From the NCBI GenBank assembly GCA_945865545.1, contig CAMBEQ010000011.1, positions 1-64,000 of the forward strand: DNA of 64,000 nt. Direction: 5' to 3'. Below are positions 148-3,086 of this stretch, in pieces. The position numbers and the translations under genes were made by a program. The notes below the pieces were generated by a model. It worked only from the letters and a program-made list of their open reading frames with translations. It searched no databases and had not been told where the DNA came from. The stretch is from Sediminibacterium ginsengisoli (GTDB lineage: Bacteria; Bacteroidota; Bacteroidia; Chitinophagales; Chitinophagaceae). Every line of letters starts with the position of its first letter. Position 1 is the first letter of the stretch.

Positions 148-155
148 CACTCAAG

Positions 156-184
156 AAAAGCCTTGCATTTTGCAGGGCTTTTTT
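156..184 (+). terminator. Rho-independent-like terminator downstream of tRNA-Asn
   Basis: AAAAGCCTTGCA-TTT-TGCAGGGCTTTTTT hairpin plus T-run. Confidence 0.75.
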
Positions 185-270
185 ATTGGTTATCATTTAC
201 CTGCGTATAAATACGCTGATTTCACATCATTAAATGCTTCATATTTGTATTCGCTATTGATTTGTGCTAA

Positions 271-290
271 TATGTACATATATTTGTACA
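271..290 (+). promoter_or_regulatory. Candidate YefM-YoeB autorepression operator
   Basis: TATGTACATA palindrome plus a second TGTACA hexamer; hexamers at 273-278 and 285-290, 12 bp centre to centre, just upstream of the antitoxin ATG. Confidence 0.7.
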
Positions 291-303
291 TAAATATGTA
301 ATT

Positions 304-555
304 ATGTTATCTACCACACTTTCAGATTTTCGTAAAGAAACCAAGCAATACCTTGATAAGGTTACCAATGAGCATGAAACCTTAATTATTAATAGAGGTA
401 AAGACATTGGCGTTGTAATCATTTCTTTAGAGGAATACAATTCCATGAATGCAACATTACACGAGATGTCCTCTAAAAAAAATATGGAAGTTTTAGATGC
501 GTCTATAAAGCAATTTAAAGATGGCAAAATGAGGGAGCGTAAATTAATAGAATAA
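304..555 (+). CDS. YefM/Phd-family antitoxin
   Basis: 83 aa; MLSTTLSDFRKETKQYLDKV...INRGKDIGVVIISLEEYNSM is typical Phd/YefM; overlaps the toxin start. Confidence 0.88.
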   Translation: MLSTTLSDFRKETKQYLDKVTNEHETLIINRGKDIGVVIISLEEYNSMNATLHEMSSKKNMEVLDASIKQFKDGKMRERKLIE

Positions 556-812
556 TGAGATATATCTTTATAGACATGGCTTGGGATGAATATCTTTTTT
601 GGCAAAAAAATGATAAACAGAAAATTAATAAAATAAATGAACTGTTAAAAGATATTTCAAGAAGTCCATATGAAGGTATAGGTAAACCAGAGGCATTAAA
701 ATTTAATTACGCTGGTTATTGGTCAAGAAGAATTGATGAAGAACACAGATTAATTTACAAAGTTGAACAAGATGAGATTCAAATTTTAAAATGTAGATTT
801 CATTACGATTAA
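555..812 (+). CDS. YoeB-family mRNA interferase toxin
   Basis: 85 aa; WDEYLFWQKNDKQKINKINELLKDISRSPYEGIGKPEALK...YWSRRIDEEHRLIYKV...CRFHYD matches the YoeB pattern. Confidence 0.93.
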   Translation: MRYIFIDMAWDEYLFWQKNDKQKINKINELLKDISRSPYEGIGKPEALKFNYAGYWSRRIDEEHRLIYKVEQDEIQILKCRFHYD

Positions 813-847
813 GCATAAATGTCTATTTTTTCTATGTAAATTTGAGT

Positions 848-1123
848 ATGAAAGTTCAAGAAGTTAATTACATAGCTGATTATACCATTAGCATCAAGTT
901 TGATGATGGTATTTCTGGAACCATTCAATTAAACGATTTGGTTCAAAAGGGCATTTTCAAAGTGCTTCAAGATCAAAACCAATTTGCTAAGGTTTATACA
1001 AATGGTTATTCAATTGCTTGGTCAAATGAACTTGAAATTGACGCTACTAAAATTTATTGCGATCTAACTGGTAAAAATTTTGGAGAAATCCTCAGTCCAA
1101 AATTGACTCATCCAATAAATTAG
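848..1123 (+). CDS. DUF2442 domain protein
   Basis: Small protein with VNYIADYTISIKFDDGISGTIQLNDL...NELEIDATKIYCDLTG, DUF2442-like; ATG at 848 preferred over 842. Confidence 0.75.
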   Translation: MKVQEVNYIADYTISIKFDDGISGTIQLNDLVQKGIFKVLQDQNQFAKVYTNGYSIAWSNELEIDATKIYCDLTGKNFGEILSPKLTHPIN

Positions 1124-1332
1124 TTATGATTTTTTTTGTAAGAGGAGAATATTTGTCGATCTACTTTATTTTTCACAAAATCTTTGGTATTAAAAGACAG
1201 CTCAATCATAGCAATAGAGGCAGCTAATCTTTCTTCAATAGTTTTATCAAACCAAAATTGGTAATCAATATTCTTATCCTTAGACATATTTCTTGATGCA
1301 TATGTGTCAACATCAACAAAAGTTTTTTTCAT
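1120..1332 (-). CDS. Small hypothetical protein (EERLAA motif)
   Basis: 70 aa ORF, tail-to-tail overlap with the DUF2442 gene; FWFDKTIEERLAASIAMIEL resembles short proteins often next to nucleotidyltransferase-type TA genes. Confidence 0.5.
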   Translation of the reverse strand: MKKTFVDVDTYASRNMSKDKNIDYQFWFDKTIEERLAASIAMIELSFNTKDFVKNKVDRQIFSSYKKNHN

Positions 1333-1374
1333 AGGATATATTATTTATTATAAAGCTAATTAAAATTAATAATC

Positions 1375-1731
1375 CTAGGACAATAACAACTCAGCAGGTA
1401 TTTTTAGTTCTTGATGAAAAAACTTGGCCAGCTCAAGGGTTAATGGCTTCTTTTTGTTTAGTAAAGAAGATACGTAACCTTTGCTACCTACCTTACCAAC
1501 AAGGTCCTTATTTTTCAATCCCAGCTCATTCATTTTTAATTTAATGGCATCAATAGGATGCGGAAGTGGAATGGGATAGTTGGCATTTTCATATTGTTTA
1601 ATTAATAGAAGTGCTACTTGTAGTTTCTCACCTTGCGGGTTATTTGATTTAACCTTATTCTCAAACTGAACATCTACCCAATCAAGGCATTGCTTATACT
1701 GTTTTTTAGTTTTAATGATTCTCAGTTCCAT
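1375..1731 (-). CDS. HigA-like helix-turn-helix antitoxin (orphan)
   Basis: MELRIIKTKKQYKQCLDWVD...HPIDAIKLKMNELGLKNKDLVGKVGSKGYVSSLLNKKKPLTLELAKFFHQELKIPAELLL; start at 1731 preferred over the 1860 ORF start. Confidence 0.82.
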   Translation of the reverse strand: MELRIIKTKKQYKQCLDWVDVQFENKVKSNNPQGEKLQVALLLIKQYENANYPIPLPHPIDAIKLKMNELGLKNKDLVGKVGSKGYVSSLLNKKKPLTLELAKFFHQELKIPAELLLS

Positions 1732-1860
1732 ATTCAAGTAGCGTTCTTCGGGTGATATTATTAAACACAAAATTAAAGATAATAAGTTTACTAATAGAAA
1801 ACTTTCTAAATTCAATCTATTTTGAAAAAGCTGCAACTTTGGTGCTAAAGGGTAGCACAA

Positions 1861-1901
1861 AAGAAAAGCCTTGTCCCGAGAAATCGGGACAGGGCTTTTT
1901 T
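1861..1901 (+). terminator. Strong terminator-like hairpin
   Basis: AAAAGCCTTGTCCCGAGAAATCGGGACAGGGCTTTTTT: long stem plus T-run. Confidence 0.8.
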
Positions 1902-2023
1902 ATTGCCTATCAGTGAGTTAGGGAACTTACCTACTGTGTATAAATACGCTGTTTTCTTTTCATTTTCCTTCAGATATTCATTTTTAATAAAGTACATGAA
2001 ATATTTTATTAAAGTTCCATTTT

Positions 2024-2843: not shown

Positions 2844-3086
2844 ATGAACGCACCTTTCAGCAAGTACCTCTACATTGGATTTTTATTATTAGGCTTATAC
2901 CAAGCCATTTTCTCTAAAGACTATATTCAAGCAGCAGCATCACTGGGTATTGGCTTGGCATTTGATCCATTCAATCCAGAACAAAAATGGAATGACAGAC
3001 CTACTCGGCAAAAGGCGGTTTTAATCATTCATCTTGCTTTAGTAGCAGCCATGTTTGGATTTGGCGTTGGTTTGAATGACAAATAA
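2844..3086 (+). CDS. Small membrane protein, hypothetical
   Basis: 80 aa ORF with two hydrophobic segments. Confidence 0.6.
   Translation: MNAPFSKYLYIGFLLLGLYQAIFSKDYIQAAASLGIGLAFDPFNPEQKWNDRPTRQKAVLIIHLALVAAMFGFGVGLNDK

Follow-up and report, generated by a model that had tools for sequence, protein, structure and literature searches.

The tRNA-Asn gene at the start of a Sediminibacterium contig is followed by what is probably a tRNA-anchored array of gene cassettes, with cassettes entering at the 3' end of the tRNA gene or at existing junctions behind it. The window, meaning the whole stretch of DNA analyzed here, covers the initial 64 kb of contig C11, which belongs to a MAG of 2.26 Mb in 66 contigs. 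An earlier note on this DNA had described four sequence blocks that occur twice behind the tRNA gene, and suggested an island boundary or a cassette-like repeat that captures toxin-antitoxin (TA) genes. The two repeat copies are two joints of a degraded cassette array behind tRNA-Asn. Comparison of genomes provides good support for both the array and its shuffling, and the evidence for movement is comparative throughout.

The tRNA-Asn locus and its repeat

The tRNA-Asn(GTT) gene that anchors the array is located at positions 74–148 on the plus strand, downstream of a gene order conserved in the genus. Its last nine bases, AGGGGGAGC (140–148), are the insertion core. All four blocks reported earlier are present at their positions and in the order described. 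However, they do not make up a single repeat, as the first two form a terminator hairpin and the fourth is an operator-like palindrome. The repeat also begins farther to the left than position 153, where its start had been placed; the second copy includes AAGGGTAGC (1848–1856), which is a damaged version of the 3' end of the tRNA, preceded by a left arm that has since degraded. The hairpin, AAAAGCCTTG-N-CAGGGCTTTTTT, is found at only two sites in the 2.26-Mb genome, both of them here, with none in a reversed control. Two hairpin cores were found in the window compared with 0.10 expected.

The end of contig C65 is the same 148 bp as the start of C11, which places the tRNA-Asn of the window at the conserved HflX-side tRNA-Asn locus of the genus. 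From our reading of the sequence, this locus presumably consists of tRNA-Met, a secreted or outer-membrane-type gene, an HflX-like GTPase, a Rieske-like gene, and tRNA-Asn. In MAGs, contigs end at tRNA-Asn and at cassette junctions and overlap there by an identical 148–149 bp, as seen for C65/C11 of G000, the window genome (L095 and the window), and for C63/C35 of G006 (L099 and L056). These identical contig-end overlaps indicate that the arrays are under-assembled in MAGs, and cassette arrays would account for contig breaks behind tRNA-Asn in such assemblies.

Structure of the junctions

In the junction consensus, AACCCTTTAATTTCCTAATAGTCACATACTCAATCATCGCATTATAGTTGCATCTTTCGTC-NNN-AAGGGGAGC is followed by 7 nt of variable spacer and by a hairpin with a T-tract, after which TCAGTGAGTTAGGG-TAGTTGCATCTTT is often present. 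The conserved left arm spans approximately 65–73 bp and ends in AAGGGGAGC, which matches the tRNA-Asn end AGGGGGAGC at eight of nine bases; a right arm is usual and not constant. As the junctions were gathered by their core pattern, conservation from −25 to −1 is partly selected, and that of the arm farther left is unselected. A hairpin with a T-tract occurs within +75 in 84% of array junctions and 97% of tRNA junctions, compared with 4% in each of two controls, shuffled sequence and the region at +200. The spacers are 0.66–0.69 identical in close pairs compared with 0.41 in random ones. They thus change as well as travel, and the point of strand exchange is not fixed to the base.

Several junctions depart from this pattern. 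In "short" junctions (L055:8381-8426, L101, L148 and others) the left arm ends at TTGCATCT and the next cassette is joined directly, and these look as if two copies of TAGTTGCATCTTT had recombined, removing the core and the terminator. At L162 in G132 the host tRNA ends in TTTGGGAGC, tandem partial tRNA copies are present, and the cassette-type junction reads CAGCTTTGGGAGC. This junction resembles the variant tRNA end of G132 itself, and the site has no left arm; here the core apparently tracks the tRNA end of its host. A segment of the left arm, ATTATAGTTGCATC (about −37 to −15), resembles the promoter region directly before tRNA-Asn (ATTATTTTTGCATC). One possibility is that the junction works as a promoter-leader-terminator unit and yields a tiny RNA.

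Junctions and cassette genes in the window

The first junction consists of the 7-nt spacer ACTCAAG (149–155), which differs between junctions, a terminator hairpin (156–184; MFE −18.3 kcal/mol for 149–190) and, from comparison with G022, G034 and G006, a right-arm remnant (189–202; TCAGTGAGTTAGGGTAGTTGCATCT in relatives) that is mostly deleted in the window, all on the plus strand. The palindrome GCGTATAAATACGC at 203–216 (strand not applicable) is operator-like and, given its occurrence across the genus, no recombination signal. The earlier note had placed YefM/YoeB and DUF2442 between the two copies, and Pfam matches confirm a Phd/YefM antitoxin (304–555; PF02604, E 2.2e-15), a YoeB toxin (555–812; PF06769, E 3.3e-37) and a DUF2442 gene (848–1123; PF10387, E 3.4e-10) as cassette genes on the plus strand. 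Cassette comparison identifies the DUF2442 gene as a cassette of its own elsewhere, presumably with a DUF4160-like partner that has been lost in the window.

Two genes on the minus strand follow. The first encodes 70 amino acids (1120–1332), has no match in Pfam and, from the relatives compared, represents a recurrent cassette family; in G004, G006, G102 and G140 this family adjoins a 150-aa gene that we take to be nucleotidyltransferase-like. The second (1375–1731) had been called an orphan HigA. It is indeed antitoxin-like and an orphan, but has no Pfam match, and its PADLOC match is PD-Lambda-2_B (PDLC03982, E 2.5e-32). A HigB-like partner of about 102 aa is kept in G034, G140, G132 and L262 and is absent from the window.

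The second junction begins with a degraded left arm and core GCTGCAACTTTGGTGCTAAAGGGTAGC (1830–1856), recognized by sequence comparison. The 7-nt spacer ACAAAAG (1857–1863) is identical to the spacer that precedes the HigBA-like cassette in G034, and leads to a terminator hairpin (1864–1901; MFE −31.3 kcal/mol for 1858–1906) and, by junction comparison, the right arm TCAGTGAGTTAGGG (1910–1923), all on the plus strand. An operator-like palindrome with one mismatch (GTGTATAAATACGC) lies at 1936–1949, again with no strand applicable. The pair read previously as HigBA is, according to Pfam, a Gp49/DUF891 (HigB-like) toxin (2051–2392; PF05973, E 7.9e-22) and an HTH (HigA-like) antitoxin (2400–2702; PF01381, E 8.5e-14), both on the plus strand. 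The same strand carries the next left-arm remnant (AGTTGCAACTTTGTTGGG; 2739–2757), whose core is lost relative to the corresponding cassette end in G034, and an 80-aa small membrane-protein gene (2844–3086) that recurs as a cassette gene in the relatives compared.

The cargo in the window is thus rich in TA genes (YefM/YoeB, Gp49/HTH and the partnerless PD-Lambda-2_B-like protein). The array is eroded: the right arm of the first junction is mostly gone, the left arm of the second is degraded, and the boundaries that once lay around DUF2442 and beyond 2702 have disappeared. This array is old, and two or three cassettes have fused as their junctions eroded.

Array variation among relatives

Among the relatives examined, the order of genes is conserved upstream of tRNA-Asn and differs throughout downstream of it. 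YefM/YoeB comes first in the window genome (G000) and G022 and later in G004 and G034. Similarly, the Gp49/HTH pair is first in G034 and second in G000, and DUF2442 is first in G004 and later in G006. In the relatives the repeated junction stands between modules. The earlier note had asked whether other copies flank accessory genes, and junctions of the same type do border many other cassettes. Within each of 217 loci all junctions are on one strand, with no locus having both. Complete units (n = 82) have a median length of 900 bp (range 224–2930 bp) and mostly contain one ORF.

In pairs of junctions drawn from related genomes, and so phylogenetically non-independent, the 164 array junctions give 148 pairs that share the left cassette, 117 that share the right and only 3 that share both, and the 40 tRNA junctions give 52 tRNA-tRNA pairs that share the left side and none that share the right. 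In left-sharing pairs the identity is 0.93–1.00 over the core (−9 to −1) and 0.34 at +1. The tRNA preceding a junction is tRNA-Asn in 49 of 51 cases.

G011 and G091 are 99.7% identical upstream of the array. A 1.0-kb HTH cassette is found directly after tRNA-Asn in G011, while G091 has the following cassette directly at the tRNA, with the HTH cassette two cassettes farther along. By comparison of the two loci, this is a moved cassette with the matching empty site. Such empty sites had been named as something to look for, and tRNA-Asn is also followed by differing cassettes among relatives. In 14 close pairs, a cassette located behind tRNA-Asn in one genome is located behind a left arm in another, with a left-flank identity outside the 9-bp core of 0.16 compared with 0.18 by chance. 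As only this core of approximately 9 bp is common to the two sides, these pairs favor site-specific over homologous recombination. The exchange of cassettes and the empty site support the suggestion of a cassette-like repeat or island boundary at the tRNA 3' end. The capture of genes is likewise supported, but the TA genes are merely part of the cargo.

A palindrome distinct from the junctions

The fourth block of the repeat, the 14-mer GTATAAATACGCTG, does not belong to the recombination signal; it is an operator-like palindrome that some cassettes carry and that also precedes recA and dprA. The 14-mer has exactly three exact copies in the genome, the two sites in the window and one at C47:3609 (L053:3609) that stands upstream of a PIN-like gene. 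With up to two mismatches allowed, two copies were found in the window compared with 0.29 expected. The palindrome, GCGTAT-AA-ATACGC, has 55 exact copies in the 121 genomes of the genus compared with approximately 11 in a reversed control. It is located 149–155 bp before recA (PF00154) in four genomes (L385, L386, L388, L395) and 36 bp before dprA in G030 (dprA loci L040 and L061). It also precedes HigBA-like, YefM/YoeB and PIN genes, and some copies are inside genes. We rejected GTATAAATACGCTG as a recombination site given these occurrences before dprA and recA, inside other genes, and away from junctions. The 14-mer is probably an operator that is separate from the cassette joints. The palindrome fits neither of the LexA motifs reported for Bacteroidetes, CTAA-N5-TTAG and GGA-N5-TCC (PMC8565304). 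It is a candidate for a diverged SOS or DNA-damage operator, which we offer as a lead only.

Recombinases and integrase islands at the same tRNA

The earlier observation that no integrase is visible holds for the window, and no integrase was recognized within the cassette units. The window genome and G008 (97% complete, at least three junctions) contain only two PF00589 proteins each, which from their size and sequence we infer to be XerC and XerD. No protein in the 121 genus genomes scored over the curated cut-off for the integron integrase (TIGR02249).

Islands with their own integrases share this tRNA gene. In Sandaracinomonas limnophila FSY-15 (L295, L296, L299) and in G146 (L297-L298), an island of approximately 14–17 kb separates tRNA-Asn from the cassette array and is delimited by a tRNA-Asn repeat of 43 bp. 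It contains copper-type and metal-binding genes, a serine recombinase, and a 410-aa tyrosine integrase (PF00589 and PF13102). A satellite-like element at the same tRNA-Asn in L190 (841–5509), next to a cassette, encodes a 436-aa integrase with Arm-DNA-bind_5, HTH_17, KilAC and a D5/DUF5906 primase, and ends with about 49 bp of the tRNA. Integrase islands are thus marked by the 43–49 bp of tRNA that they leave, from the anticodon loop on, whereas cassette junctions share approximately 9 bp with one mismatch. The 410-aa integrase beside the Sandaracinomonas array was considered as the cassette recombinase and is not supported in that role, as its element has its own 43-bp tRNA repeat and homologues are missing from most array carriers. 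Remnants of island-type integrases are found near arrays in G034 and G091, and it is possible that island integrases act as helpers for the cassettes.

Distribution and cargo

The left arm (65 bp, E ≤ 0.001) occurs in 43 of the 121 genus genomes. Its exact core, TGCATCTTTCGTCNNNAAGGGGAGC, is present in at least 118 stretches of GTDB genomes (Bacteroidota), in records titled Aquirufa, Sandaracinomonas, Flavobacterium, Algoriphagus, Haliscomenobacter, Chitinophagaceae, Sphingobacteriales and other Bacteroidota, although the titles of MAGs may be wrong. Many of these records are apparently freshwater MAGs, and cultured Aquirufa and Sandaracinomonas are included. The 73-bp arm was found in 1 of 396 sampled genomes of the phylum, and the system is therefore patchy and not universal. 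Neither the left nor the right arm was detected in IMG/VR, INPHARED or PLSDB at the sensitivities used.

Pfam matches among 56 representative cassette proteins include HTH regulators, GNAT acetyltransferases, short-chain dehydrogenases, acyltransferases, YoeB and HigB toxins, PhzF, MFS, HxlR and others. PADLOC additionally identifies PD-Lambda-2 A and B and SoFic-like proteins among the cassette proteins.

Proposed mechanism and alternative explanations

We propose that a cassette would consist of a terminator, in some cases a right arm, one or more genes, a left arm and AAGGGGAGC, usually without a recombinase of its own. It would enter at the tRNA-Asn 3' end or at an existing junction, and the incoming terminator would keep tRNA-Asn intact with a terminated transcript. 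We infer the recombination chemistry from sequence comparison. A broader proposal, in which our confidence falls somewhat short of even, is that the arrays represent a distinct cassette-capture system across freshwater Bacteroidota, analogous to integrons but unrelated to them. The tRNA-Asn 3' end would be its fixed entry point and the arm of approximately 70 bp together with AAGGGGAGC its recombination site, every cassette would supply a terminator of its own, and a trans-acting recombinase, either a resident Xer protein or a travelling helper, would move cassettes between species.

The conserved arms of 65–73 bp might allow homologous recombination or natural transformation alone to shuffle the cassettes. 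Consistent with this, the same cassettes occur with swapped terminators, their right homology starting at +28 to +36, and the short junctions resemble recombination between TAGTTGCATCTTT copies. However, the 14 close pairs, in which cassettes join the tRNA or the left arm with approximately 9 bp in common, are hard to explain in this way, as are the neighboring cassettes of G011 and G091, which have no shared right arm, and we consider this explanation unlikely. We assign a similarly low likelihood to serial insertion of integrase-bearing islands or satellites at tRNA-Asn that decayed and left their cargo between tRNA-end remnants, with no cassette system involved. Integrase elements do occupy tRNA-Asn (the copper-resistance-type island of Sandaracinomonas and G146, and the L190 satellite), and islands of freshwater Methylopumilus are recognizable by repeated copies of the final 20 bp of tRNA-Lys (PMC10872708). 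However, the tRNA repeat left by islands is 43–49 bp, and cassette junctions share only about 9 bp of tRNA and carry a different arm of 65–73 bp. The units, most of which hold a single gene, also retain intact boundaries and recur in different species, unlike random debris.

A chromosomal integron, or an integrase-less attC cluster (CALIN), would account for single-gene cassettes in tandem, all oriented alike, and for the hairpins at their junctions, and some right arms read GTTAGGC, like the R' box of attC. However, the boundary is at the end of AAGGGGAGC, with the hairpin 5' of the gene, and the R''-R' signature is found in 5.5% of the 164 junctions compared with 1.8% of shuffles. This rare signature and the lack of TIGR02249 matches above the cut-off in 121 genomes led us to reject the attC reading, leaving an integron of either kind very improbable. 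Least credible of all is a chance or generic terminator repeat with no mobile significance. While two of the blocks first noticed are terminator arms, their hairpin is not spread over many unrelated sites, as the earlier note had considered it might be, but is unique to two in the genome; it is part of a junction conserved in many genomes, and the exchange of cassettes contradicts this explanation. A tRNA-anchored cassette array is our preferred reading.

Comparison with known systems

Open-access papers on tRNA-linked cassette arrays in Bacteroidota, on Aquirufa islands and on Sediminibacterium yielded no earlier account of this system. If our reading is right, freshwater Bacteroidota have an integron-like exchange platform that integron finders would miss. 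It would have a recognizable 70-bp signature, a fixed tRNA entry point, and a cargo that includes toxin-antitoxin and anti-phage-type genes. It would also provide a handle on how small genes pass from one order to another with no plasmid or phage vector in evidence, as the arm was not found in the plasmid and phage collections searched, and would pose the question of which recombinase reads the AAGGGGAGC junction.

Integrase islands that target tRNA genes (ICEs, IMEs and satellites, such as that of Sandaracinomonas limnophila) use the same tRNA gene, insert downstream and leave the tRNA intact, as the cassettes do. However, they encode an integrase and a small HTH partner and have a 43–49 bp tRNA repeat, and the cassettes have no integrase and share approximately 9 bp. 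The pdif modules of Acinetobacter plasmids are small, TA-rich units between recombination sites that are moved by the host XerCD and have no recombinase of their own. The arrays described here differ in being chromosomal and tRNA-anchored, and we noticed no dif-like inverted 11-bp arms.

In Methylopumilus, a freshwater organism, the additive flexible island region fGI-2 at tRNA-Lys holds variable islands of 330 bp to 42 kb with recurring tRNA 3'-end repeats, which are not integrons (PMC10872708). The present locus is likewise variable behind its tRNA and has repeats of the tRNA end that recur, but it is built of units of approximately 1 kb with a 65–73 bp arm beyond the tRNA end, a spacer and a terminator, and is found across several orders. 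Tycheposons of Prochlorococcus, as cited in PMC10872708, are tRNA-anchored cargo elements of 4–200 kb with a tyrosine recombinase. On that account they resemble the arrays in their anchoring and differ from the cassettes, which are approximately 1 kb and have no tyrosine recombinase.

The closest resemblance in organization is to integron cassette arrays and CALINs (reviewed in PMC8618304). These share tandem, mostly single-gene, non-replicating cassettes in one orientation that are shuffled between genomes, with junctions of conserved sequence and one anchored end, and integrase-less clusters are known. However, IntI above the cut-off is absent here and the R'' (RYYYAAC) and R' (GTTRRRY) boxes are inconsistent. 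The anchor is a tRNA 3' end, the boundary falls at AAGGGGAGC instead of G|TTRRRY, the hairpin lies 5' of the gene where attC lies 3' of it, and the arms are conserved in primary sequence. The array behind tRNA-Asn works like an integron cassette array, a tandem array of small shuffled cassettes, and is set apart from integrons by the three features tested: IntI, the attC boxes and the G|TTRRRY boundary.
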